Origin: a virus
Direction: 5' to 3' (one strand)
Length of the DNA stretch: 55,951 nucleotides
Virus record (IMG/VR): IMGVR_UViG_3300025828_000030
Coordinates: 1-55,951 of that record
The notes beneath the pieces are model-generated. The model worked only from the letters and a program-made list of their open reading frames with translations, was not told the origin of the DNA and ran no database searches. Below, one piece after another: positions 1-55,951 of the stretch. The position numbers and the translations under genes are program-made. Positions within the stretch are counted from its first letter, which is position 1; every line of letters begins with the position of its first letter.

Positions 1-655
1 TAGGTGGTATTCCTCTTACAGCTATTTCTTGTATACCAACTTCATTGGTAGTAATGATATAAGTTCTTGCACCTGTAAGTGTTTTTAATACCTCTGTTCC
101 AAATGAGCTTACATAACCGTCAGGTGTTTTAAGTAATAATGGTATTCTTCTAACCAAGTTATCTATATCAACCGGTGCACTAGCAATACCTTGGTTTGCT
201 TTTGCTTGTAATATATCTATATTCTGTATAACACCAAGTATAGGCATACCGCCAACATCATTACCTTTTATAACAGTGCCAGTGGTTTTAGGATACTCAC
301 CGTTTGCATTTTCAAACATAGCTAAGACAGATGGTATATATTCAAGAGTAGTGGCAAACACTTCATCACCACCCATGCGATCAGCTTGTGGAAAACCTAT
401 AACCCAACCCACACCTATAGCACCTTCATTTATTAAATCTACTTGTATTTGTGCAAGTGTCCTTCTAGGAAATGGCCAACCTCCTTGTTCTTCAATGTCT
501 TCTTCTGTAATGTTCAAGACAACAAAATTACCAGATGGCTCTGGCGTAGTAACAAAAGCGTCAAATACTTTGAGTTTTAGTATTTCAGTTGGAGTGCTTT
601 GAAATATAAGTGGCAGTGATAATACAACTAATATAGGAAAGATAAGTTTATTCAT
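1..655 (-). CDS. CHASE2 adenylate cyclase, N-terminal part (gene continues at 55825)
   Basis: This is the first 218 codons of a 594-residue protein whose remainder is at 55825-54695. It starts at ATG 655-653, which overlaps the FecR stop in an ATGA. The N-terminus is a hydrophobic anchor (residues 1-16, MNKLIFPILVVLSLPL). The rest is most of a CHASE2 domain: a GGWPFPRRTLAQ segment, DNLVRRIPLLLKTPDGY near residues 173-187, then RGIPP at the join. CHASE2 is an extracytoplasmic sensor domain found in front of three membrane helices and a cyclase, kinase or GGDEF output. The ligand is unknown. The phage origin and the position directly after FecR in a curli-like cassette are unusual. Confidence 0.93.
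   Translation of the reverse strand, partial: MNKLIFPILVVLSLPLIFQSTPTEILKLKVFDAFVTTPEPSGNFVVLNITEEDIEEQGGWPFPRRTLAQIQVDLINEGAIGVGWVIGFPQADRMGGDEVFATTLEYIPSVLAMFENANGEYPKTTGTVIKGNDVGGMPILGVIQNIDILQAKANQGIASAPVDIDNLVRRIPLLLKTPDGYVSSFGTEVLKTLTGARTYIITTNEVGIQEIAVRGIPP
2..127. repeat. Terminal direct repeat, left copy
   Basis: These 126 bases are identical to 55826-55951; base 1 (t) differs from base 55825 (c). The length is typical of the k-mer overlap left when an assembler opens a circular molecule. The reading frame of the cyclase gene continues exactly through the join. I read it as an assembly overlap, not as a biological terminal repeat, although a circularly permuted headful-packaged genome would give the same picture. 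Confidence 0.9.
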
Positions 656-1749
656 TTACTTTGAGTGATTGTAATAACACTATCACTTCCTCCGTTTACT
701 TTGATTGTATTAGAAACACCATCTTGTATCAAAATTACTGTGTAAGCGTTACTACCGTTTAAATCTAATCTTACGCTTTCGCTTACTTGTCTTCTAAGGC
801 TTATTACGTTTCCTGTAATTAAAGTAGTTATTTGTGTATCTGGATCATTACCTATTAAAGTACCAACTATTTGTGTGCTTGTAGCAAGTGCTAATTGATC
901 CTCTTCTTTTTCTACAGCAAGTGCATCTATTACATCTAACAAGTCTTCAAGAAAGTTTACATCTAGGTAATTTATATCTAGCTCAGTAAATTCTAGTTGG
1001 TCTTCGTCCAAAAAGTCTTCTGCTAAATAGTCAATATCTAAGTCGTTAAAATCAAGCAAGCTGTTGGTTTGTGTAATTGTTGTTTCTTCAACCATTATTT
1101 CTTCTTCTTTTGGCGGGCTAACAATCAGCATATTATCTATAAGATCTAGAGTAAGATCCAAAATTACAGGCTTTGTAGGAGATGATTCAAATACACTCAC
1201 AGTCGTTGCTTGATAAGGTTTATTAAGCAAAACAGAACCAGTAGCTGTTACAACCTCTATTTCACCACTAGATAAACCAAATTTATCAGGTAATAAAATG
1301 ATAAGACTACGGCCTAATTCATCCACAGTAGCTGTAAAGTCAGTGCCTCTTATCGCTATATTAGCAGTTGGTGTTTTAAGTTGTATGTTTTGCTTATCTA
1401 TTCTATTTAAGTTGCCTGTTATAAACCTAGCTGTACCTAAACCAAAGGTTAGAGCCATCTTAGACTTTGATGGATCTGGATCGTAAATATATTCGTCAAT
1501 AAGTAATTGTGAGTGTTCTGTAAGTTTTACAGTGGACTCATCAAGGAAGGTAATAGCCATCCTGCCATCTTTTGTTATAGCTTCATCATTGCTTTGTATA
1601 GCAAATTCTAAATTAGCTTCGTATGGCTTATCTCTTAGTATTTGTGCAGAACCTCTAAGCTCAGATATATCTCCTATATCAACAGCCTGTTGAGGTTCCC
1701 CCATCGTTTTGAGTGATACAAATATTACTATTAGAAGTAGTGCTTTCAA
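652..1749 (-). CDS. FecR-domain exported protein with C-terminal curlin-like repeats
   Basis: The 365-residue protein has a signal peptide (MKALLLIVIFVSLKTMG). A FecR domain covers about residues 25-180: a GRMAITFLDESTVKL segment, then IQLKTPTANIAIRGTDF, which is the classic FecR signature. Residues about 225-280 are very acidic, with repeats of the type LDIDYL, LDINYL, LDVNFL. The last 35 residues look like curlin repeats, with GSN, GVSN and GGSD turns at 332, 344 and 353 and a closing Q363. No sigma factor gene lies nearby, so it is probably not a FecI-type anti-sigma regulator. I infer a periplasmic or surface partner of the curlin gene just upstream, possibly a nucleator or a sensor ligand for CHASE2. 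It overlaps the curlin gene by 71 bp. Confidence 0.88.
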   Translation of the reverse strand: MKALLLIVIFVSLKTMGEPQQAVDIGDISELRGSAQILRDKPYEANLEFAIQSNDEAITKDGRMAITFLDESTVKLTEHSQLLIDEYIYDPDPSKSKMALTFGLGTARFITGNLNRIDKQNIQLKTPTANIAIRGTDFTATVDELGRSLIILLPDKFGLSSGEIEVVTATGSVLLNKPYQATTVSVFESSPTKPVILDLTLDLIDNMLIVSPPKEEEIMVEETTITQTNSLLDFNDLDIDYLAEDFLDEDQLEFTELDINYLDVNFLEDLLDVIDALAVEKEEDQLALATSTQIVGTLIGNDPDTQITTLITGNVISLRRQVSESVRLDLNGSNAYTVILIQDGVSNTIKVNGGSDSVITITQSK

Positions 1750-2410
1750 TTTTTAACCAATCCCTAGCCAATGTAGATGCTTGTATGATGTTAAAAGTGT
1801 TACTGCTACCATCAAGATCCATATAAAAATAACCAGAATCAGATGATGTAGTGCCTGCATAACCACTAGCAGTAAAATTCACCACGTTGGAACCACCATT
1901 TATATCTACATAATTAACAGCATTAGCATAGTCAATGTCAAAATCAAACTCGTTTGAACTACCTAAAATAGTCCAATCTAAATCTAAGTAAGATGAATCG
2001 GAGCTTTCAGCAATTTTTAAATCAAACTCATTGCTACTACCTGTTACGTCTACGTATAAGTTTACATAGTCTGAACTTATTAAGCCTGTGCTGTTAAGCA
2101 ATATATCCATAATATTACTATCACCATCAAACTCAAAGAACCCAGTAAAGTTGTCGCCATCGATAGCGTCTGATCTAAATAAGTTGCTTGAACCGATTTG
2201 ATTTATATCTAGCGTCATGCTGACACCATCAAGGTCAAGAGCAGTCATTGTTCCAGAAACAGCTTCCGTACCACCAATAAGGTTGGAACTACCTAGCTGT
2301 TCTAAGTCAATGGATGCACTATTTCCACTCTGGTCTATGTATATTTCATTGTCAGCTGCAACGTGAACAAAAGAAAAAACAAGAAATAAGCACGTAAGTT
2401 TATTCTTCAT
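1679..2410 (-). CDS. Curlin-repeat secreted fibre subunit candidate
   Basis: The 243-residue protein has a signal peptide (1-19, ending HVAA) and then a regular beta-strand/turn pattern. G-x-S-N turns occur at residues 40, 73, 96, 124, 150, 172/173 and 201. The first unit, IDQSGNSASIDLEQLGSSN, fits the curlin pattern (Q-x-G-x-x-N). Later units replace many Gln with Asp, giving an acidic protein (motifs such as YVDINGGSN and YMDLDGSSN). Cysteines sit at 231 and 243. It lies directly after csgG with an 11-bp overlap, as expected for a substrate of that channel. CsgA and CsgB are about 150 residues, so this one is longer and more divergent. A curli-like amyloid or a soluble beta-solenoid are both possible. 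Confidence 0.75.
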   Translation of the reverse strand: MKNKLTCLFLVFSFVHVAADNEIYIDQSGNSASIDLEQLGSSNLIGGTEAVSGTMTALDLDGVSMTLDINQIGSSNLFRSDAIDGDNFTGFFEFDGDSNIMDILLNSTGLISSDYVNLYVDVTGSSNEFDLKIAESSDSSYLDLDWTILGSSNEFDFDIDYANAVNYVDINGGSNVVNFTASGYAGTTSSDSGYFYMDLDGSSNTFNIIQASTLARDWLKIESTTSNSNICITQNDGGTSTGC

Positions 2411-3257
2411 TACTCGATTCTACTCCTACTTCTTCTGTTTGTAAAACCCAATACCCCTTGTCGAAACCCTGGTTTATTATCTCAAGAACACCACCCTCAA
2501 TAGCTTTCATTAACGCTATGGTAGACGATTCATTTCTAGCATTGCCTAGCTCTATCTCTACAAGCTCTGTGTCCATTTCAATAAATCTAAATACATCATT
2601 AGTTTTACCATAACTAAATATAGTTTTTTGACTAAGCACCTCTAATAAAACTTCTCCTGTAGCTACAGAAATCATGCGTAGACTTACAGTTATATTATCT
2701 TCTCTATACTGAACACTATTACCAATACCTAAATAACGAGCACCTGATCCACCAGATTCAAGGTTTGCTTCGTATGATATGACCGCACCTTCTATAAGTA
2801 TTCCTGCAAAGAGTAATGGTGCTAGTTGTTTTTTCTTTTCTTCTTCACTAGCAAACTGCTCTCTTGCTGATCTTATAAGCTGTCTTTCTTTAGTTAAATT
2901 ATCCAAACCAACTCTTTCTACAACTCTAAAAAACTGACCATTGCCAGCGTGTTTTAAGGCTCTTATAAGCAAAGCATTAGGTTGTTGAGTAATAGCTGTG
3001 CTAAATAAAGCGAATTCAGAGTTTGATTTACGTTGACCTGTTTGATCTGTAAAAGCCAAAGGATATACTGCAACAACGGGTCTAACTTTTGGTAAAGGTG
3101 CGTTTTTTAATTTATCGGATTGTAGCTCCTGGATAGAAACTATATTGTGTTGTTTAAACCTTTGCTCGTATGTATCTTCAAACTGATCAAATATAGAACA
3201 ACTAGAAAGTAAAAGAACCAATAGGCAAAGTAATCTCGGTGACGTTTCCATCAGCAT
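2400..3257 (-). CDS. csgG: CsgG-like curli secretion channel lipoprotein
   Basis: CsgG forms a nonameric outer-membrane pore that exports curlin subunits. The 285-residue product, close to the 277 of E. coli CsgG, has a lipoprotein signal with LLSSC (lipidation Cys20). It keeps the family landmarks: VRPVVAVYPLAFTDQTGQ, ALLIRALKHAG, FFRVVERVGLDNLTKERQ, a GGSGARYLGIG segment, the ITVSLRMISVATGEVL strand, TIFSYG and FRFIEMD, and IEGGVLEIINQGFDKGYW at the C-terminus. ATGs at 3257 and 3251 are both possible starts, and neither has a strong ribosome site. It overlaps csgF by 56 bp and the curlin gene by 11 bp, so the three are very likely co-translated. Confidence 0.95.
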   Translation of the reverse strand: MLMETSPRLLCLLVLLLSSCSIFDQFEDTYEQRFKQHNIVSIQELQSDKLKNAPLPKVRPVVAVYPLAFTDQTGQRKSNSEFALFSTAITQQPNALLIRALKHAGNGQFFRVVERVGLDNLTKERQLIRSAREQFASEEEKKKQLAPLLFAGILIEGAVISYEANLESGGSGARYLGIGNSVQYREDNITVSLRMISVATGEVLLEVLSQKTIFSYGKTNDVFRFIEMDTELVEIELGNARNESSTIALMKAIEGGVLEIINQGFDKGYWVLQTEEVGVESSNEE

Positions 3258-3714
3258 CGGTTATCCGTAATGTAATAAATTGTCCATCAGATGTATATTC
3301 TATAATATTACCTTCAAGTTCTATAGTACCTTCATTTTGTGGTGTTTCGCCAAATAAATTATCTACAAGCTGTCTTGATAATTGTGCATATATTCTAGAT
3401 TCAAGATTTCTTAAAAATCTAGCTAAAGTAGTATTTTCTTTATCTCTTTCTATTTGTTCTTGTAAAGCTTTTATTTCTTCTTTAATTGTAAGCTTTCTTG
3501 TGTATTGTTGGTTCTCTATTGTTAGATAATGACTTGATGTACCAACGCCACTAAAACTTGGTGACTTAAACTTATGTACTATTTGATCTGCTTTTATTTG
3601 TTGCACAAAAATACCACCAAACAATAAAATACCTATAATTGTTACAATTTTAATAACAGTATCCTTTTCGGCTTCTTCTTTTATTGCTTGTTCTCTAGTC
3701 TTTTCTTTGGTCAT
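3202..3714 (-). CDS. csgF: CsgF-like curli assembly protein
   Basis: CsgF binds the extracellular mouth of CsgG and helps nucleate curli. The 170-residue product shows KFKSPSFSGVG (compare FRNPNFGG in E. coli CsgF), then SRIYAQLSRQLVDNLFGE, then a C-terminal beta domain NIIEYTSDGQFITLRITDADG. It is longer than E. coli CsgF because of a charged helical insert (residues about 75-110, rich in E, K and Q) and an unusual N-terminus: 18 charged residues before the hydrophobic stretch IKIVTIIGILLFGGIFV, with KAD as a plausible cleavage site. It overlaps the holin-like gene upstream by 20 bp and csgG by 56 bp. Confidence 0.88.
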   Translation of the reverse strand: MTKEKTREQAIKEEAEKDTVIKIVTIIGILLFGGIFVQQIKADQIVHKFKSPSFSGVGTSSHYLTIENQQYTRKLTIKEEIKALQEQIERDKENTTLARFLRNLESRIYAQLSRQLVDNLFGETPQNEGTIELEGNIIEYTSDGQFITLRITDADGNVTEITLPIGSFTF

Positions 3715-4045
3715 CTCTATCTGCTTTTGCTATTTTAGTGCTATCTATTAATTGTGGCACACCTAATATTGTCTTAATTAGTGTGTCCTGGCGTATAATT
3801 TCATTATCTAAACTACGCACTCTATCTATCAAGGCTACTAAAATACCATGTTGTGAGTCAAGTTTTGTGCCTAGGCGTTCTTCTATGGCTGCTATCTGTG
3901 ATTCTACTTTTTCATCAACAGTGTCTAATTTAGCCTCCATACCGTCTACGATACGTATGACCAACTTGTAAATAAACCAACCAAGTCCAACAGCCGCAGC
4001 TATTGGAAAACCGACTTCTTGAATAACTGTAACTGCTGAATCCAC
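3695..4045 (-). CDS. Single-helix holin-like protein with coiled coil
   Basis: The 116-residue protein has one N-terminal membrane helix (VGFPIAAAVGLGWFIYKLVIRIV, residues about 11-33) followed by a charged coiled coil. This is the plan of BhlA/UviB-type phage holins and related membrane proteins. It starts with GTG at 4045, and the G of that codon is the last base of the TAG stop of the gene upstream. It stands just before csgF. Because spanins and endolysin lie on the far side of the curli cassette, a role in lysis is plausible, but it could instead be an inner-membrane partner of the secretion genes. Confidence 0.6.
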   Translation of the reverse strand: MDSAVTVIQEVGFPIAAAVGLGWFIYKLVIRIVDGMEAKLDTVDEKVESQIAAIEERLGTKLDSQHGILVALIDRVRSLDNEIIRQDTLIKTILGVPQLIDSTKIAKADRDDQRKD

Positions 4046-5389: not shown

Positions 5390-5551
5390 CTAGTTACCCT
5401 TGTCTTTTGCTTTTAAAATGTTAAGAGCTAATAAATCTATAAATTTATACAGCTTACCAATCCAAGCATCATCTTTGGGTGTAGGAGTTGTTGCTGCAAC
5501 TATAGAAGCAACTGTGACAATAGTGGTTACCCACATAATTATATCTGCCAT
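5390..5551 (-). CDS. Small membrane protein, 53 aa, holin candidate
   Basis: The frame starts at ATG 5551, which shares one base with the TAA of the gene upstream. It encodes one membrane helix (IIMWVTTIVTVASIVAATT) and then TPKDDAWIGKLYKFIDLLALNILKAKDK. This pattern of a short helix, a TPxPKDD loop and an amphipathic tail is one I have seen in small proteins next to lysis genes of marine phages. Holin function is inferred from size and topology only. Confidence 0.7.
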   Translation of the reverse strand: MADIIMWVTTIVTVASIVAATTPTPKDDAWIGKLYKFIDLLALNILKAKDKGN

Positions 5552-42979: not shown

Positions 42980-44949
42980 TATAAATCTATATCTATTACA
43001 GAGGAGTTACCTGTTACTCCTGATGTTGTACCAGTGACACCTTCAGCAGGTTGACCGCTTATGATTCTTAATATGCTTTCAAGATAAGGACTAAGTGCCT
43101 GTATACCCACTCCTTGATAAGAAGGATTTTGTATTATTGAATACTTACCTTCAATAATTCTTTTCTTGTCTTCGTTGTTTCTAATTAGGTTAGCCCTAGC
43201 ATTTGCCAGTTTTTTCCTAATTTCTTTAGGATCACCAGTTAAATCTAATTCACCAAATACCTTGTCTACTATTTCTCTATCTAAGTTAGATATGGTTCTA
43301 CCAGACTCATTAAGTATTTCTCTAATGCTTCTTTGTTTTACTTGGTCAATATAGTTTTGTATTTTTGTAGAATCACTAACATTTGTATCTGTTGCACCCA
43401 TGAATGCTTTTAGTTTATCTACACCTCTAACTGCGTATCCTGGTAGACCTGTAATAGGCACACCGTCTTTAATAGCAGCATCAAATAAATCTATAGCTGA
43501 GTTCATAATATCTATAGATGCTTCTGTACCTTCGTAATCTTTTACAGTTGTACTTATTTCAGTTATGTCTGTTTGTAATGCACCTAGCTCTGATGGTTTT
43601 AATCCTGTACCACTGCTACCTTGATTTTTAACTTTCTGTACAGCTATTGCCATAGCAAGATCTCTTTGATATTTTTTCTCTTCTTGCTCTTTGAGTAACT
43701 CTCTTGCAGTTCTTTCCTCTGCAGCTTTTGCAGCTCCAGTAGCAAGTCCTTCACCCATTTGTCCAGTAGCAACAAGTTGTCCACCAACATTTCTAATAAA
43801 GTCTAAGAATCTATCAGAGCCAAACAAACCAGTAGTTTCTTTTGGTACTACAGGTATTCTAGCTGTATTCCTAGTTTCTTCATCTTCTTCTGTGACTGTG
43901 GTATCTACTTTGATAAGGTCTGGTTTTTCTATTTCAAAAGTACCATCAAATTTAGCTTGTGTATCTGCTATGGTATCAGCCTCTGATCTATCTATATCTA
44001 TCTTCATTTCTGCTGGTAAAATTTCTTTGATAGCTTGAGTTATTTCATCATCTTGTTCTAGTCTGCCAGTTGGTAAAGGATCTCCAAATTCATCTCTACC
44101 TATTAAGGATTTTTCATATTCCATTCTTCTAGCTTCAAGATCAAAACCACCAACTGTTCCTGGTGCATAAACTTGTCCTAATGTTTCACTTTCTGTTTTA
44201 GGTACAAGAACAGGATCAGGCAATAAGTCTTTATCTGTTGGTATTTCGTCTACAGGTATAGGATCTACTGAAGCAACTTCAGGTTCTGGTGCTTTTATTT
44301 CCTTTATCTCATTAGAGAAGTCTTGTATGTCACCGACACCTGATCTTGATAAAACATCAATCAAAGTTTTTTGTGGTATACCTTGTCTTAACATACCACC
44401 CCTATCATAGACATCTAAGAGGTCATAATCACTTGCAGCACCAGTTATAGTCTCTGTGCTGAAAGGCATTCTTTCACCGCCAATACCACCTGGATAAATA
44501 TCACTTGGAGTAAATCCTTCTTCCATTCTTTTTTTACCACCTTCTCCTAAACCTAAACCAAGTTTATTGAAAAGGTTAATGCCACTTTCGACAGTTCCAA
44601 TGGCACCTTGGGTTAAAGCACCTCCAAGATCTCTAAATCCTGCTCTAGCTGTTAAGTAGTCAGGTAACTGTTGACCAAATTTAAACGTATTTGGATCAAC
44701 GCTAGAAATACCGCTTTGTTTCTCATAAACAATTTTCCTTAATATTTCCTGTGTGGCTGGGCTATAAGTAACATCGGGATTTTGTACGAAGCTTGTAATG
44801 GTAAAAGCATCTGATCTACTTAAATCATTGTAAAGTTTTTCTGGGTCAATAAAAGTTTTGGTATTATTAATTTTATCAATGAAGTAGTAACGATTATCTA
44901 CAGTAGCTTCTCCTCCAGCTTGAAACATTTTACGATTTAAAAAGTTCAT
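42979..44949 (-). CDS. Internal virion protein, 656 aa
   Basis: The protein is helix-rich, with an N-terminal head (MNFLNRKMFQAGG), a Gly-rich region (GALTQGAIGTVESGINLFNKLGLGLGEGG), a long disordered acidic/Pro part (about 225-360) and a helical end (SDSTKIQNYIDQVKQRSIREILNESGRTISNLDREIVDKVFG). The MFQAGGE opening occurs in other ocean phage virion proteins. An ejection or neck role is likely from position between two giant virion genes. Confidence 0.78.
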   Translation of the reverse strand: MNFLNRKMFQAGGEATVDNRYYFIDKINNTKTFIDPEKLYNDLSRSDAFTITSFVQNPDVTYSPATQEILRKIVYEKQSGISSVDPNTFKFGQQLPDYLTARAGFRDLGGALTQGAIGTVESGINLFNKLGLGLGEGGKKRMEEGFTPSDIYPGGIGGERMPFSTETITGAASDYDLLDVYDRGGMLRQGIPQKTLIDVLSRSGVGDIQDFSNEIKEIKAPEPEVASVDPIPVDEIPTDKDLLPDPVLVPKTESETLGQVYAPGTVGGFDLEARRMEYEKSLIGRDEFGDPLPTGRLEQDDEITQAIKEILPAEMKIDIDRSEADTIADTQAKFDGTFEIEKPDLIKVDTTVTEEDEETRNTARIPVVPKETTGLFGSDRFLDFIRNVGGQLVATGQMGEGLATGAAKAAEERTARELLKEQEEKKYQRDLAMAIAVQKVKNQGSSGTGLKPSELGALQTDITEISTTVKDYEGTEASIDIMNSAIDLFDAAIKDGVPITGLPGYAVRGVDKLKAFMGATDTNVSDSTKIQNYIDQVKQRSIREILNESGRTISNLDREIVDKVFGELDLTGDPKEIRKKLANARANLIRNNEDKKRIIEGKYSIIQNPSYQGVGIQALSPYLESILRIISGQPAEGVTGTTSGVTGNSSVIDIDL

Positions 44950-47900
44950 TATCCTTGTCCCTGCCTTGGAGCCAAAGCACCATAAGCACTAAATGCAGCA
45001 CCAAGTCCTGCAGCTGATGGATCTGTTGGTAATCCGTATTGTGAACCAATCTGTGTACTACCTTGTTGATAACCTGGTAACATTGAACCTATTTGACCTA
45101 GGACACCTAATGGTCTTTCTTGCTGTCGTAACATTTGCTGGTATATTCTTGATAAGCCAGTCTCAGCAATACCTCTGCCAACACCACCAAATCCAGCTAG
45201 CTCGCCTCTTTGACCAGCTCTAAGCCCTTCTTGAGTTGAACCTATACCACCTATTTGACTACCATATCCAGCTAGTTGTTGACCTAATTGTGATGCAGCA
45301 CTACCTCTACCTACACCAATGCCCATAAGTCCTTGTGCACCGGTTCTCTTAGCTGCTTGCTGTCTTGCAAACTCACTCATACCTGTGCTTTGTGCTTCAC
45401 TAAATCCTCTTTGTCTAATAGCACCTAATGCTTGTGCTAGGCCTTCACCTAAAGCTTCTTGACGTTCCATAGCACCTAACCTAGCTCTACTACCACCAAA
45501 AGCACCAGCACTTATCTCACGGGCTCTAGAAGCTATATCTTGCTTCTCACCTGCTTCCATGACATCTTGTATAGTTTTGTCTACTACTGCTTGTTCAAAC
45601 GGGTTATAGAACTGCTGTGTCATGCTTGGGTCATAAGCACCCATAGTATCTTTATATATCTCTTCAGCTTGTGTGTAATAAGGATCTTGTAGTTCTTCAG
45701 CACGTCTTGATTGTGCGATAGCTTGTTCTACTAAGTCTCTGTTTTGTTGTAAGAATGGTTCAAAGCCACCAAGACCAGCTACTGCTTGTTGTCTTGCTAA
45801 TAGCTCTAATGGTGTTAAGCCTGCTGTTTGTTGTAATGGTACGTCTTGACCAATAAGGTTAGCACCAGCTTGTTGTAGCTGTTGATAGAATCCTGGTTGA
45901 TCTGCTGTACCAAAGTATAAAGCTCTTACTAATGGATCAGTAAGATTTTCTTGTGATGTTTGACCAAGTAATACAGGATCCAATGCTCCCACAGGCATAG
46001 GTTGGGGTTGAACCTCACCATCCGCTGCAGACGGTGTAGGAGCAGTGGTAACTGGGTCAGTTGTTGGTGCTGGGTTTGCTATAAGACCAGCAGCAGGATT
46101 AGGTGGTGGATTGATGCCTTGGTTACCTCGAAATTGTAAACCTTCAATATTTGTTCTTGGATCTGATATTCCAATTCTGTCAAAATAATCTTTATCAAAA
46201 ACTTCTTGTCCTGTTGTTGCTACAAAATCATCTAATCTAGGATCTGATGGTCTGTCATCAATAAATAGTTGGTCGTCTCTTTTTGGTGGTAATAAGTCTG
46301 CTTTTGTAGGACCTGTTGGTGGAGTAATCATACCACCAGTTACTTGATCAAATCCTCTTTGTGGTGGTACAAAACGGTCAACATCAATACGGTCACGCAA
46401 GCTGCCAGGACCTTTATTTTCTATATTTTTTACAAAATCTGGAGGAGTTACACCTGCTGGACCGATAATTCTTCCATCTGGTCCACGAATCTCTGTTGGT
46501 CTTATGCCTGGACCAAATCCAAAGTCTTGTGGTGGTATTGGTCTTATTGGCACTGGTCCACCAGGAGGTAAAGCTGGACCACCTCTTACTGGTCTTGGAC
46601 CTTGTATCATGCTTTCTGGTTTTGTAACAGATAACACATTTTGTTGATAGCTTTCCATAGCTGCTGGATTTGCATCTAAATATTCTTTAAGACTGTTTCT
46701 ATATCTAATGTCTGTAGAAGATCCTGTTTTTTGTTCTCCTGTAATCGGGTCTATATACATTCTTATATCCATCGTTCCTATTTGTGGACGTTGTGGTGCA
46801 TCAGGAAAAGCAGCTCTAAAAGCATCACCACCAGCTCTTAGCTGGTTGCTGTATTCAGTTCTAGCATTTCTATCTGCTACAACACCTGGATCTTCTGTAA
46901 TTGGTGTTACTTGAGGCAGCCTACCACCACCAATACCTCCTATTGACATAGGTGGTTCGGGTCTTCTTATAGGTAATCTATCCATAGGCTCTATTGGTTG
47001 TGGTTCAGGTAAAGTATAATCGTTTTCAAGTGGTGATGGTTCTGGTTGAGCTGGTGTTTGTAATTCACTTAATCTTTGCTCAAGTTCCTGTAATCTGTTT
47101 TGTAAAACACTTGGATCAAAAGCAGGTATGTTTCTGCTCTCTAACGCAGTCAATCTTTTTTGTAAATTGCTTGGATCAAAAGGATTTGAAGGTTGTGGGA
47201 TATCTATACCACCTCTTATATCCTCTATAAGTTTCTGCCTATCAAATGCAGGGGGTGTTGGTAATTCACTTCTTATATCACGTAATAAAGACTCTCTATC
47301 AAACTCTGGTATCTTGATACCGCCTCTTATATCTTCTATAAGTTTTTCCCTATCAAAAGAAGGAGGTTTTGGTATATCAATACCGCTTCTTATATCTTTT
47401 ATTAGAGCATCTCTGTCAAACCTAGGTATGTCTATACCACTACGTATGTCTTTAATTAAAGCTTCTCTATCTATAGAAGGAGGTTTTGGTATGTCTATAC
47501 CAGACCTAATATCTTCAATAAGTGCATCTCTATCAAAAACGGGAGGCTTAGGCGATACATCTATGCTTCCTCGCATTTTATCTAAAATCTCTTTTTCAAA
47601 AGCTTCTTTGTCAAAAGTTGGTATATCTTCTTTTCTTGCAAACCCACTTAAATCAGGAGCTTTATACTCAGGCATTTGTATACCTTCTCTAGCTATAGAT
47701 AAAAAGTCTTCTCTAAAGTCTCTTGGATCAAATTTAGGTAGATCACCAGCAGTTAAAAACTTGCTTGTATCTATTTGTGGTAAATCTTCTAATCGTGCAA
47801 AACCAGATAAGTCTGGAGCTTTGTATTCAGGTATATTAAGGTTGTCCAATCTATCTCTTAAACCAGCAATTCCAGATTGTAAGTTAGACGGATCAAATGT

Positions 47901-49208
47901 AGGTATTTCTCTACCCTCAAGTGCTTGTAACCTATCTCTAAGAGCTGAATCATCAAATTGTGGAATATTGCCCAATAGATCTCTGTTTGCTTGTATCTGT
48001 TGTTGTAACTGTGAAGGATCAAATTGTGGAATGTTTGCTAATCTATCTTCTAAACCTGCAATACCAGCTTGTAGTTGTGAAGGATCAAAAGTTGGTATTT
48101 CTCTTCCCTCTAATGCTTTTAATCTATTTTGCAATGACGTGTCATCAAATGTAGGTATTTCTCTACCTTCTAAAGACGCAAGTCTTTCTCTTAAAGCAGA
48201 GTCGTCAAACTGTGGTATGTTGCCTAATAAATCTTTATTAGCTTGTATTTGTTGCTGTAAACCAGAAGGATCAAACTGCGGAATATTTGCGAGTCTTTCC
48301 TCTATGCCACCAATCTGTGATTGTAAGTTGCTTGGATCAAACTGAGGTATATTAGATATACGATCACTTAAGCCAGCAATACCGGCTTGTAATTCTGACG
48401 GATCAAATTGTGGAATGTTGCTTAATAATTGTTTATTAGCTTGTATTTGCTCTTGCAAACCACTTGGGTCGAACTGAGGTATGTTACTAAGCAAATCTTT
48501 GTTAGCTTGTATTTGTGATTGTAATCCGCTTGGGTCAAATTGAGGTATTTCTCTACCTTCTAAAGACGCAAGTCTTTCTCTTAAAGCTGAATCATCAAAC
48601 TGTGGTATGTTGCCTAATAAGTTTCTATTAGCCTCAATTTGAGATTGTAAATTACTAGGATCAAACGTAGGCATTTCTCTTCCTTCAAGAGCTGATAATC
48701 TATCTCTCAATGCAGAGTCATCATATCCAGGTATGTTACCAATGCTTCTATTTAATTCATCAAACCCAGTTGTATATCTGTCCTCAATGGCACCAATTCT
48801 ATCTTGCAATGCTCTGTCATCATACTGAGGTATATTGGAAATACGTTCACTTAAACCAGAAATACCAGCTTGTAATTGTGATGGATCAAAAGTAGGAATC
48901 TCTTTATTCTCAAGAGCTGATAATCTATCTCTTAATGCTGTATCGTCAAAACTTGGTAGGTTAGATATTCTATCTTCTAAACCGCCAATCTGAGATTGTA
49001 AATTGCTTGGGTCAAAACTTGGTATGTTAGATAATAAATTTTTGTTTGCATCTATTTGTGCTTGAAGACCTGATGGATCAAAAGTTTGACCACCGCCAAC
49101 ACCACCTATAGACATTTGATCTCTGCCTGTTTGTTTTACTGGCATGTAGCCTACTGGAGTCAATCTCATTAACTGACCATTAATGATTTTTGTATCTCCG
49201 TATTGCAT
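44949..49208 (-). CDS. Giant repetitive virion protein, 1419 aa
   Basis: Residues about 45-470 are some twenty units of about 22 residues on the pattern FDPS-x-LQ-x-QI...L-x-NIPQ. Residues about 505-680 are a second set of about 8-9 units on the pattern PPSFDREKLIEDIRGGIDIP. A Pro-rich part follows. Residues about 1050-1419 are an alpha-helical domain typical of marine phage ejection proteins (YNPFEQAVVDKTIQDVMEAG; GAFGGSRARLGAMERQE). Coiled-coil trimer or rod is likely. It ends with Gly/Gln-rich segments. Confidence 0.85.
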   Translation of the reverse strand: MQYGDTKIINGQLMRLTPVGYMPVKQTGRDQMSIGGVGGGQTFDPSGLQAQIDANKNLLSNIPSFDPSNLQSQIGGLEDRISNLPSFDDTALRDRLSALENKEIPTFDPSQLQAGISGLSERISNIPQYDDRALQDRIGAIEDRYTTGFDELNRSIGNIPGYDDSALRDRLSALEGREMPTFDPSNLQSQIEANRNLLGNIPQFDDSALRERLASLEGREIPQFDPSGLQSQIQANKDLLSNIPQFDPSGLQEQIQANKQLLSNIPQFDPSELQAGIAGLSDRISNIPQFDPSNLQSQIGGIEERLANIPQFDPSGLQQQIQANKDLLGNIPQFDDSALRERLASLEGREIPTFDDTSLQNRLKALEGREIPTFDPSQLQAGIAGLEDRLANIPQFDPSQLQQQIQANRDLLGNIPQFDDSALRDRLQALEGREIPTFDPSNLQSGIAGLRDRLDNLNIPEYKAPDLSGFARLEDLPQIDTSKFLTAGDLPKFDPRDFREDFLSIAREGIQMPEYKAPDLSGFARKEDIPTFDKEAFEKEILDKMRGSIDVSPKPPVFDRDALIEDIRSGIDIPKPPSIDREALIKDIRSGIDIPRFDRDALIKDIRSGIDIPKPPSFDREKLIEDIRGGIKIPEFDRESLLRDIRSELPTPPAFDRQKLIEDIRGGIDIPQPSNPFDPSNLQKRLTALESRNIPAFDPSVLQNRLQELEQRLSELQTPAQPEPSPLENDYTLPEPQPIEPMDRLPIRRPEPPMSIGGIGGGRLPQVTPITEDPGVVADRNARTEYSNQLRAGGDAFRAAFPDAPQRPQIGTMDIRMYIDPITGEQKTGSSTDIRYRNSLKEYLDANPAAMESYQQNVLSVTKPESMIQGPRPVRGGPALPPGGPVPIRPIPPQDFGFGPGIRPTEIRGPDGRIIGPAGVTPPDFVKNIENKGPGSLRDRIDVDRFVPPQRGFDQVTGGMITPPTGPTKADLLPPKRDDQLFIDDRPSDPRLDDFVATTGQEVFDKDYFDRIGISDPRTNIEGLQFRGNQGINPPPNPAAGLIANPAPTTDPVTTAPTPSAADGEVQPQPMPVGALDPVLLGQTSQENLTDPLVRALYFGTADQPGFYQQLQQAGANLIGQDVPLQQTAGLTPLELLARQQAVAGLGGFEPFLQQNRDLVEQAIAQSRRAEELQDPYYTQAEEIYKDTMGAYDPSMTQQFYNPFEQAVVDKTIQDVMEAGEKQDIASRAREISAGAFGGSRARLGAMERQEALGEGLAQALGAIRQRGFSEAQSTGMSEFARQQAAKRTGAQGLMGIGVGRGSAASQLGQQLAGYGSQIGGIGSTQEGLRAGQRGELAGFGGVGRGIAETGLSRIYQQMLRQQERPLGVLGQIGSMLPGYQQGSTQIGSQYGLPTDPSAAGLGAAFSAYGALAPRQGQG
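47168..47693 (-). repeat. Second tandem repeat set, FDRE-LIEDIRGGIDIP
   Basis: About eight to nine imperfect units of 50-75 bp encode (P)SFDRE-x-LI-x-DIR-x-GIDIPK. They share the PxFD opening with the first set, so both may derive from one ancestral unit. Confidence 0.8.
47798..49076 (-). repeat. Tandem FDPS-LQ-QI repeats within the 1419-aa protein
   Basis: About twenty imperfect units of roughly 60-70 bp encode the pattern FDP(S)-x-LQ-x-QI-x-x-x-x-x-L-x-NIP. A sub-type has FDDSALR-x-RL-x-x-LE-x-REIP. The two sub-types alternate irregularly, which points to duplication of pairs of units. Confidence 0.85.
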
Positions 49209-53399: not shown

Positions 53400-53843
53400 T
53401 TATACCTCATGCCATTCTTTGTTTTCAAATAACAAAGATTCTGCTTCTCTTCTCCTTATTAAACCCTGCAAAACTTTTCCACCAGCTTTGTTCCACCTTT
53501 TAATTTGTGCAGGGACACCTTCATAATCTTTTGCATTAAGCACTTTAAGTAAAGTTGATGCTTTTAAATTTGCAGGTCCTAAGTTAAATACCCAGGAAAC
53601 AAGTGCATCAAACTGATTTTGTTCTAAATCTACTTCTACTAAATCATTAATATAGCCCTCATACTCTTTCATTTCGTGTAAGAGTAAATTATCAGCTTCT
53701 TCTTGTGTGATTGTGTCACCTTCTTTTACACCTTTAGTAGAACCATATCCTATAGTCCATACTCCTGCTGCACATTTGTAAGCTTCTAGCTCACAGCCCT
53801 CAAACTTTTTAATTAAAGCCAAACCTTCTTGTGATATATTCAT
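53400..53843 (-). CDS. Endolysin, GH24 lysozyme type
   Basis: I start at ATG 53843 (MNISQEGLALIKKFEG), which has GAGGAG upstream; the frame is open to 53906. The 147-residue muramidase has catalytic Glu in KKFEGCELEAY, then CAAGVWTIGYG, where Cys sits at the usual Asp position and Thr follows, as in many phage lysozymes. DALVSWVFNLG is the second helix. No signal or SAR segment is seen, so a holin must release it. Confidence 0.92.
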   Translation of the reverse strand: MNISQEGLALIKKFEGCELEAYKCAAGVWTIGYGSTKGVKEGDTITQEEADNLLLHEMKEYEGYINDLVEVDLEQNQFDALVSWVFNLGPANLKASTLLKVLNAKDYEGVPAQIKRWNKAGGKVLQGLIRRREAESLLFENKEWHEV

Positions 53844-53844
53844 A

Positions 53845-54216
53845 TTACTGCTCCTCTGTGGTTGTAGTAACCTTTTTATAATAGACAACAACTTCTTTAA
53901 GTTCATTTATATACCTTTTTAATTCTTGCATATTATACGCCATAAGCTCATAATCGGGCACAGACATAGCTAAGAATACCACTTGACCGTGTTCTTTCTC
54001 AACTCTTGCTAAAAATTCATCTAGATTTTTGTCTGAAACGACATACCAATAAGGATCTTTTAAATCTATCTCTCTTGGCATTATGGGTTGCACAATGGTT
54101 CTTTCTAGTGGCTTTGCTGTTACTTCTATCTGTTTAGTTGGTAGCAGACTGCAACTGCAAGCCATTATCAAGACTGTCGATATTACGGCTGTCTTCTTCA
54201 ATACTATCGAATACAT
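53845..54216 (-). CDS. Putative outer-membrane spanin (Rz1-like) lipoprotein
   Basis: The 123-residue protein has a lipoprotein-like signal (VISTVLIMACSCSLLP, Cys at about 20-22), then a Pro-containing segment (VQPIMPREIDLKDPYWYVV) and a helical end (YELMAYNMQELKRYINELKEVV). It overlaps the Rz-like gene by 83 bp, the usual Rz/Rz1 arrangement. The middle part resembles a T4-like marine phage protein of unknown role, so o-spanin is likely but not certain. Confidence 0.65.
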   Translation of the reverse strand: MYSIVLKKTAVISTVLIMACSCSLLPTKQIEVTAKPLERTIVQPIMPREIDLKDPYWYVVSDKNLDEFLARVEKEHGQVVFLAMSVPDYELMAYNMQELKRYINELKEVVVYYKKVTTTTEEQ

Positions 54217-54529
54217 CTTTAGTTCCTTTATTTACCCTAGGTTCTATTAAACCAGGTTTAGCTGCTGCTAACTTAGTTAAATTATGTCTTTTGAATATAT
54301 CAAGGTATCTTGACATTTCTTGTTGTATTTCTTGATTTTTGTTTTGTAATTCTAAAAGACTTGTTGTTTGTAGTTGAAAATCGTTTTGTAAACTTTGTAT
54401 TGCTTCTTCTTGCGTAGCTACAGCACCTTCTAATGCCATGTTATTAGCTGTAAGTGTTTTATTTTGGTTATATAAATAAAAAGTTATAAGAGACATAACT
54501 AAGATTATGCCAATTAAAACTTTGCTCAT
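54134..54529 (-). CDS. Putative inner-membrane spanin (Rz-like)
   Basis: The 131-residue protein has an N-terminal membrane anchor (VLIGIILVMSLITFYLY) and then a coiled coil (LEGAVATQEEAIQSLQNDFQLQTTSLLELQNKNQEIQQEMSRYLDIF), the layout of Rz-type i-spanins. The C-terminal part (RVNKGTKDVFDSIEED) is acidic. It overlaps its partner by 83 bp and the holin-like gene by 4 bp. Confidence 0.7.
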   Translation of the reverse strand: MSKVLIGIILVMSLITFYLYNQNKTLTANNMALEGAVATQEEAIQSLQNDFQLQTTSLLELQNKNQEIQQEMSRYLDIFKRHNLTKLAAAKPGLIEPRVNKGTKDVFDSIEEDSRNIDSLDNGLQLQSATN

Positions 54530-54708
54530 ACGAATCTAGATAAGACTACAGATAGCAGAATAAATGGATATACAGCCCATATCATGTTTTCAAGCTTATC
54601 AAAGCGTTTTGAACCATCATCTAACCTTTTTTCTATATTAGCGTATCTAATACTGCACTCTCTTTCATGTGCTTCGATTTTTGTTATTGCTTCCTTAGTT
54701 GTTGCCAT
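54526..54708 (-). CDS. XhlA-like holin candidate, 60 aa
   Basis: A charged coiled coil (EAHERECSIRYANIEKRLDDGSKRFDKLENM) is followed by one C-terminal membrane helix (IWAVYPFILLSVVLSRFV), the XhlA/hemolysin holin plan. It overlaps the end of the cyclase gene by 14 bp and precedes spanins and endolysin, which is a normal lysis gene order. Confidence 0.72.
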   Translation of the reverse strand: MATTKEAITKIEAHERECSIRYANIEKRLDDGSKRFDKLENMIWAVYPFILLSVVLSRFV

Positions 54709-55951
54709 GATCCTGCTTATGTTTTGTATATATTTTTAAAGGTTTTGTTTTGCCTTTTACCTTTATAGATTCTAGCACTTCTAGTTTATAACCACAAAAC
54801 TTTTCTGTTTCCTCTCCTATTAGCAAATCAACTCCTCTTTCTTTAGTGGCTGATTCTAATCTTGCAGCAACATTGACAGGATCACCTATTGCAGAATAAT
54901 CAAATCTAGTATCACTACCCATATTACCAACTATTGCAGTTCCTGTATTTATACCAACTCCTATAGCCACAGATGGCAAACCTTCAACCTCCAACTCATC
55001 ACTTACTTGTTTTACATTATTAATAAGCTCAAGAGCACATTCATAAGCTACTTGTTCATGGTGTAACATATCTATAGGTGCATTAAATATATACATACCA
55101 GCATCTCCAATAAATTTATCAATACAACCATTATATTTTTGTACTGCATTTACTTGAGCTGTAAGAACTCTATTCATAATGTAAGTAACTTCTTCTGGCT
55201 CAACTGATTCACTTAGTGCAGTAAACCCACGCAAATCTGTAAACATAAAAGTGCATCTTCTTTTCTCGCCACCTAGTTTTAACAAGTCAGGATTGTTTTG
55301 TAATTGTTTAACTTGTCTTGGATCTAGATAATGTTCAAACTGTTTTTTGATTTGTTGTCGCAATTTGTACTGTTTTCTGTAGTTTATGTAGAAAGCAATA
55401 GCTCCAGTAATGAATTGTGAGATAAAAGTCCATGAAAAATCTATTAAATACCCCTTTTGAACGCTAAAAGCTCCTGTAAAGGCCGTAGTAAAGAGCAAAA
55501 TAACAGCAAGACTTACGCCCTTAGTTATACCAAGATAATTAATTACAAGCCACGTCAGAGACACAAAAATTCCAAAAATTAATATTTCCAACGCAAGAGC
55601 AAAATCTGGAACAAATGGAGAGTTTTCTATCAATATTGACTCAGATAATGCAGCTTGAATCTTATGTGGTTCTAATAATCCAGTCGGTGTTGCAAGTTGA
55701 GGCATAACACCTGGAGCAGTTACACCAACAAATACAAACTTACCAGCAACATCCATTTCTTCTAATGTTGTTTGTGGTGTATCAACCCAACTAATCCATT
55801 TACGACCAAGGCTATCTGTTTTAACAGGTGGTATTCCTCTTACAGCTATTTCTTGTATACCAACTTCATTGGTAGTAATGATATAAGTTCTTGCACCTGT
55901 AAGTGTTTTTAATACCTCTGTTCCAAATGAGCTTACATAACCGTCAGGTGT
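54695..55951 (-). CDS. CHASE2 adenylate cyclase, C-terminal part
   Basis: This continues the gene that begins at 655; residues 219-594 are at 55825-54695. After the end of CHASE2 (MDVAGKFVFVGVTAPGVMP) come three membrane helices (about residues 293-317, 321-338, 346-365), then a class III cyclase domain (about 407-591). Metal Asp residues are in FTDLRGF (D415) and IGDAG (D459), the adenine-binding pair is Lys455 and Asp533 (SAIGDP), and the transition-state pair is Asn536 and Arg540 in NVAARLES. The Lys/Asp pair predicts ATP as substrate, so it should make cAMP inside the cell in response to an extracytoplasmic signal. Confidence 0.95.
   Translation of the reverse strand, partial: TPDGYVSSFGTEVLKTLTGARTYIITTNEVGIQEIAVRGIPPVKTDSLGRKWISWVDTPQTTLEEMDVAGKFVFVGVTAPGVMPQLATPTGLLEPHKIQAALSESILIENSPFVPDFALALEILIFGIFVSLTWLVINYLGITKGVSLAVILLFTTAFTGAFSVQKGYLIDFSWTFISQFITGAIAFYINYRKQYKLRQQIKKQFEHYLDPRQVKQLQNNPDLLKLGGEKRRCTFMFTDLRGFTALSESVEPEEVTYIMNRVLTAQVNAVQKYNGCIDKFIGDAGMYIFNAPIDMLHHEQVAYECALELINNVKQVSDELEVEGLPSVAIGVGINTGTAIVGNMGSDTRFDYSAIGDPVNVAARLESATKERGVDLLIGEETEKFCGYKLEVLESIKVKGKTKPLKIYTKHKQDHGNN
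55826..55951. repeat. Terminal direct repeat, right copy
   Basis: Identical to 2-127. Joining the two copies gives a circle of 55825 bp and an intact cyclase gene. Confidence 0.9.

Follow-up and report, generated by a model that had tools for sequence, protein, structure and literature searches.

What would a phage gain from a curli-type secretion cassette that carries its own substrate, and from a cyclase gene at the end of it? The question is raised by IMG/VR virus record IMGVR_UViG_3300025828_000030, the whole 55,951 nucleotides of which were analysed (the window). At a probability of about 0.55, we read its curli genes as a pelagiphage-type curli (type VIII) cassette that, late in infection, exports a surface fibre and includes a periplasm-sensing cyclase. 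The cassette is mostly already described from other phages, and the window is a new complete member. Added here are the completeness of the cassette and the selection on it in the closest relatives, its adjacency to lysis genes, a first gene product free of kinase domains, a discordant divergence of the fibre gene and intact cyclase motifs.

The cassette is encoded on the (−) strand in the order HolL, CsgF, CsgG, a curlin-like protein of 243 amino acids (aa), a FecR-domain protein and a CHASE2 cyclase. An earlier interpretation made from the letters alone (the sequence-only reading) had proposed five overlapping genes on one strand at 655–3714. Open reading frame coordinates and Pfam searches confirmed the five genes, all on the (−) strand. 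The CHASE2 part of the cyclase (2–655) falls outside this range. The overlaps are 56 nt between csgF and csgG, 11 nt between csgG and the curlin-like gene, 71 nt between the latter and the FecR gene and 4 nt between the FecR and cyclase genes. The gene at 3695–4045, encoding a membrane protein of 116 aa here called HolL, is also part of the cassette and is its first gene. The order csgF-csgG-csgA/B-FecR-cyclase of the pelagiphage type VIII secretion system (T8SS) module was found in the window; the module as published may or may not include a second csgA/B.

CsgF, CsgG, FecR and CHASE2 scored above the Pfam cut-offs and the 243-aa protein below. Profile searches confirmed the identity of CsgF (3202–3714, −; Pfam E 6e-18) and CsgG (2400–3257, −; E 2e-46). 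The Pfam match of CsgG, an outer-membrane pore lipoprotein, was full-length, and E. coli CsgG structures in the PDB were aligned over most of its mature length (E 5e-47). It carries the lipobox LSSC, and a lipobox is present in most homologues. The N-terminal peptide FKSPSF-G of CsgF is the counterpart of the pore-entering CsgF segment and is kept across the viral family. A phmmer search of CsgF against the PDB gave no match, the sequence being too divergent for a single-sequence search.

The cyclase claimed by the sequence-only reading is real, but its gene is split by the window ends. Positions 2–127 and 55826–55951 form an exact terminal direct repeat of 126 bp, without strand. The contig is therefore a complete circle of 55,824 bp. 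IMG/VR classes the record as linear, perhaps because base 1 is a one-letter mismatch to the repeat. Circle closure joins 2–655 (−), encoding the N-terminal 218 aa with the CHASE2 sensor part (Pfam E 9e-18), in frame with 54695–55825 (−), encoding the end of CHASE2, about three transmembrane (TM) stretches and the class III catalytic domain (Pfam Guanylate_cyc E 2e-19). The product is a protein of 594 aa with matches to adenylate cyclases in the PDB (E 6e-33).

Fusion of a bacterial curli operon to a phage contig during assembly was considered. A second IMG/VR record of 12,907 bp (L004) was 99.99% identical to the window and ran unbroken through the cassette, the join, the lysis genes and structural genes, which excludes a chimera; the chimera that the sequence-only reading had named as fatal to its proposal was looked for and not borne out. 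Three further records (L005–L007) and many other contigs share the gene order. The phage CsgG proteins formed a clade separate from the five bacterial CsgG sampled (support 100/99). No support for an artefact was found; the G+C content of the cassette (34.5%) differs only slightly from that of the remainder of the genome (37.7%), and we give this explanation practically no credence.

What the sequences show directly are the gene set, its order, conservation, purifying selection, the catalytic motifs and the location ahead of the lysis genes. A scan of IMG/VR gave 505 CsgG relatives, of which the best 80 were analysed, so the results cover the closest relatives and not the distant ones. Wherever the contig was long enough the other genes were kept, in a single order: CsgF in 68/68, HolL in 66/66, the curlin-like protein in 75/75, FecR in 66/66 and the cyclase in 62/62. 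The sequence-only reading had proposed a search of marine viral genomes for csgG beside FecR and CHASE2 genes, and the full set was present in every sufficiently long viral contig fetched. Median ratios of nonsynonymous to synonymous substitution (dN/dS) were 0.10 for CsgG and the curlin-like protein, 0.09 for FecR, 0.13 for CsgF and 0.19 for the cyclase, compared with 0.21 for the endolysin and 0.11 for a virion protein. These are rough values, from pairs with dS of 0.1–1.2 that are not independent and have dS near 1. All cassette parts, including substrate and cyclase, appear to be maintained as working proteins.

Eight cassette contigs had been binned in metagenome-assembled genomes (MAGs) (L088, L089, L090, L091, L092, L093, L094 and L101), assigned to Maricaulis, Neomarinimicrobiota, Flavobacteriaceae, Rhodobacteraceae and Pelagibacter. 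Two of these (L088 and L094) were rejected as bacterial donors because virion, lysis or terminase genes of phages lie on them. The others are doubtful donors, as most carry HolL, and the MAG-binned contigs look like mis-binned phage contigs. An unannotated record of Salmonella phage S.Kent 1-2-1 (OR851715.1, 1,499 bp) also contains a CsgG gene and is perhaps a bacterial fragment.

The curlin-like protein (1679–2410, −) is likely to be the fibre subunit and the substrate of CsgG. It contains seven GxSN turns, 22–33 residues apart, whereas 20,000 shuffles gave a mean of 0.12 and a maximum of 3. AlphaFold2 with 31 sequences predicted an all-beta solenoid (pLDDT 78, pTM 0.74), and VIA-align of the model matched beta-helix and solenoid proteins with Z of 11–18, which we take to indicate a type of fold and not a relationship. 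The net charge is about −30. The curlin-repeat protein of the sequence-only reading has the turns and a modelled solenoid but scores below the Curlin_rpt cut-off. The fibre itself, also proposed there, is supported by the universal retention of this substrate under purifying selection.

The fibre protein was only 46–53% identical to that of relatives with CsgG of 80–89% identity. In L088 and L089 the fibre protein was 57–64% identical and CsgG only 55–59%. Gene exchange or uneven divergence is the simplest reading of these comparisons. They could also suggest that the fibre masks the surface against superinfecting phages and that its divergence reflects a contest between phages. The purifying selection on the fibre gene within close pairs does not favour such a contest, and the mechanism overlaps that of fibre export, so we regard the mask as rather doubtful.

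The FecR protein (652–1749, −; Pfam E 9e-10) has a signal-like N-terminus and, by hydropathy, no internal TM stretch. In an anti-sigma FecR a cytoplasmic tail at the N-terminus precedes an internal TM helix. This layout was not found, and therefore the predicted protein does not look like an iron-citrate anti-sigma regulator. Its C-terminal tail ends in an ITITQ-type motif, as in most homologues. In the cyclase, the motifs FTDLRGFT, DKFIGD and GDPVNVAARL are kept in 69/69, 67/69 and at least 61/69 homologues. The residues expected of a class III adenylyl cyclase are present: two metal-binding Asp, the adenine-type Lys/Asp and the Asn-Arg pair.

From these observations we infer export, assembly, the role of FecR, timing and benefit as follows. 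Late in infection, the acidic beta-solenoid protein would reach the periplasm by its signal peptide, would cross the outer membrane by the CsgG pore together with CsgF and would build a fibre or coat around the infected cell. FecR, itself secreted, may act as a periplasmic or surface adaptor, anchor or nucleator, not as an anti-sigma regulator. The cyclase would sense the state of the periplasm and make cyclic AMP (cAMP), possibly by way of FecR, because the two genes are neighbours in some bacteria. The likely benefit is that neighbouring cells or debris are retained, or competitors kept out, around the burst, since the cassette is probably expressed together with the lysis genes.

The next genes after the cyclase encode an Rz-like inner-membrane spanin (54134–54529, −; phrog_739 E 5e-16), an overlapping Rz1-like lipoprotein spanin (53845–54216, −; phrog_812 E 2e-11; lipobox-like IMAC) and an endolysin (53400–53906, −; Pfam Phage_lysozyme E 3e-51, phrog_7 E 1e-66). 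Of the viral contigs, 41 extended 2.5 kb or more beyond the cyclase, and in 30 of these a spanin and/or endolysin gene started within 4 kb of it; the other 11, of podophage type, had no recognised lysis gene there. In the myophages HTVC008M and Melnitz the cassette is located away from the lysis genes. The cassette therefore tends toward the podophage lysis region and is not bound to it. At the homologous virion gene of the cassette-less HTVC023P, HTVC027P, 023Pt_psg01 and DSL-LC04 no match to a lysozyme profile was found nearby; DSL-LC04 has an annotated holin and an M15 peptidase at the homologous place. The adjacency appears unreported in PMC9599517, because the words lysozyme, holin and spanin are missing from its main text as available.

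This position raises the possibility that the cassette, or its pore, serves lysis, as the sequence-only reading had offered in the form of a pore useful near lysis. The location directly before the spanin and endolysin genes agrees with it, as do the absence of a CsgE gate and the small HolL protein described below. A timing at lysis was also argued for Melnitz, on the grounds that csgA/B were missing (PMC9004378). That argument needs the substrate genes to be absent, yet the Melnitz record (L002; MZ577098.1 52015–54809) annotates two curlin repeat proteins, contrary to the statement in the paper. The substrate is always retained under purifying selection, the cassettes of HTVC008M and Melnitz lie elsewhere, 11 of the 41 contigs lack a recognised lysis gene, and spanins already target the outer membrane. 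A lysis role is therefore unlikely in our view, though more deserving of attention than a surface mask.

HolL has one hydrophobic N-terminal stretch and a coiled coil, and occurs in one or two copies in relatives. In the phage collection its matches were confined to csg-carrying phages. By position, HolL is probably the gene published as 'HK'. HisKA and HATPase_c domains were absent from the window protein (against Pfam and NCBIfam) and from eight homologues (against Pfam), so the kinase label would be unsupported by sequence if the gene is the same. Scores against holin profiles were low (phrog_1296 E 0.04, phrog_4898 E 0.14, YvrJ E 0.085) and lend weak support to a possible holin-like role. 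A membrane protein of 53 aa encoded at 5390–5551 is a further holin candidate; it matches phrog_9685 and phrog_402, whose functions are unassigned in PHROG.

Several results weigh against an exported fibre coupled to a cAMP signal. The curlin-like protein scored 14.8 bits with Curlin_rpt, where the cut-off is 20.7. The structural neighbours of its model are generic beta-helices, and a Foldseek search for a curlin-specific fold gave nothing at E 1e-3. Because of the low score and these generic neighbours, amyloid assembly is unproven. The sequence-only reading had also ascribed curlin-like repeats to the FecR protein. Its FecR domain was found, but the repeats are no more than suggestive, with few turns; the comparison of the tail with the curlin-like profile by hhalign was not significant, and homology of the tail to the curlin-like protein was not supported. 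The structure model of the FecR protein was poor (pLDDT 36) and nothing was drawn from it. CsgE (PF10627) was unmatched in the window genome while the E. coli control was detected; the CsgE gate is found in model operons but is neither universal nor essential (PMC7029224). Cultures of Melnitz showed no clumping (PMC9004378).

The cAMP branch is without an obvious receptor. Receptors were surveyed in 147 genomes, their completeness unstated, of the SAR11 order, to which the Pelagibacter MAG G004 belongs. A search for cNMP-binding domains at E 1e-6 gave 2/147 genomes and a looser search gave 11/147 above the cut-off; the looser figure is used here. Besides G004, nearly all positive genomes carry the domain twice within a single protein of about 870 aa. 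A class III cyclase or this CsgG was found only in G004, on its phage contig, and no cNMP-binding domain is encoded by the window, HTVC008M or Melnitz. Receptor folds other than the cNMP-binding domain exist. Judging from these genomes, most SAR11 members appear to lack a visible receptor for the cAMP route to curli regulation that has been put forward in the literature. We suggest, as a tentative idea of low probability, a late fibre and signalling unit in step with lysis. Its cyclase would enter a lineage mostly without class III cyclases and cAMP-binding domains, cAMP would act through an unidentified receptor or outside the cell, and the fibre gene would be exchanged among phages. Cyclases with intact catalytic motifs are carried by phages of SAR11 (HTVC008M), a group in which most genomes show neither a cNMP-binding domain nor a class III cyclase.

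The missing CsgE also bears on the proposal (PMC7029224 and the available text of PMC9599517) that the pore takes up a scarce nutrient or cofactor during infection, FecR and the cyclase sensing nutrients. Without CsgE the pore may remain open. The ever-present substrate and CsgF would be left unexplained, however, and the FecR protein, which starts with a signal-like segment and lacks an internal TM stretch, is unlike the iron-citrate anti-sigma regulator. Uptake is improbable, more so than a surface mask, and fibre export is still preferred.

Similar cassettes were reported before. Pelagimyophages were found to carry csgF and csgG in 2020 (PMC7029224). In 2022, nine genomes of HTVC023P-type podophages were described, in the available text of PMC9599517, with HK, csgF, csgG, csgA/B, FecR, often a second csgA/B, and adenylate cyclase genes; the podophage T8SS genes were widespread and expressed in metatranscriptomes, and transfer from myophages, ultimately from Alphaproteobacteria, was proposed. 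The records of HTVC008M (a SAR11 myophage) and Melnitz (an OM43 methylophage) annotate a complete cassette set. The sequence-only reading was thus mistaken in taking such a cassette, complete with substrate and cyclase in a phage of podovirus type, to be unreported. The window has the same order as the HTVC023P-type module, including the gene at the HK position, and is of the same phage type, with terminases 56–60% identical. It differs from the module, as far as the available text describes it, in lacking a second csgA/B-like gene and in having the kinase-free 116-aa protein at the HK position. HTVC008M and Melnitz have the same order and homologues of every gene, with two copies of HolL; their CsgG is 43–44% identical to that of the window, and an extra curlin-like gene lies between their FecR and cyclase genes.

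Alphaproteobacterial curli operons share CsgF and CsgG with the phage cassette, and a curlin-like protein was detectable in 3/5 loci. Within about 8 kb of the five loci there was no match to FecR, CHASE2 cyclase or HolL. FecR adjoined a CHASE2 cyclase in 3/30 bacterial loci, two of them in the same order. Sinorhizobium meliloti CyaD1 likewise combines CHASE2, TM stretches and a class III cyclase domain, with the FecR gene smc02177 near cyaD1; the available part of its description states that CyaD1 with CHASE2 deleted makes cAMP constitutively and does not report curli genes. Because FecR and CHASE2 cyclase genes are neighbours in bacteria and neither was near the five csgG loci, the phage unit may merge two bacterial units, curli and FecR-CHASE2 cyclase, a comparison of few loci.

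TerL and virion proteins relate the window phage to the HTVC023P-type podophages. Its best TerL matches were 023Pt_psg01 (60% identity), HTVC027P (57%) and HTVC023P (56%). Virion proteins also matched the HTVC023P group, and DSL-LC04 was close for one of them. A large gene at 44949–49208 contains degenerate repeats of about 63–66 bp and multiples at 47158–49091.

Among the contigs examined there was no exception: phages of abundant marine bacteria, with genomes of about 56 kb, retain a secretion and signalling unit of several genes. Because so few SAR11 genomes show a recognisable cAMP receptor, the regulatory explanation now in use is doubtful. The position of the cassette ties a secretion system to phage lysis. 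If fibres form at the end of infection, they would change the behaviour of virus-killed cells and debris in the ocean.

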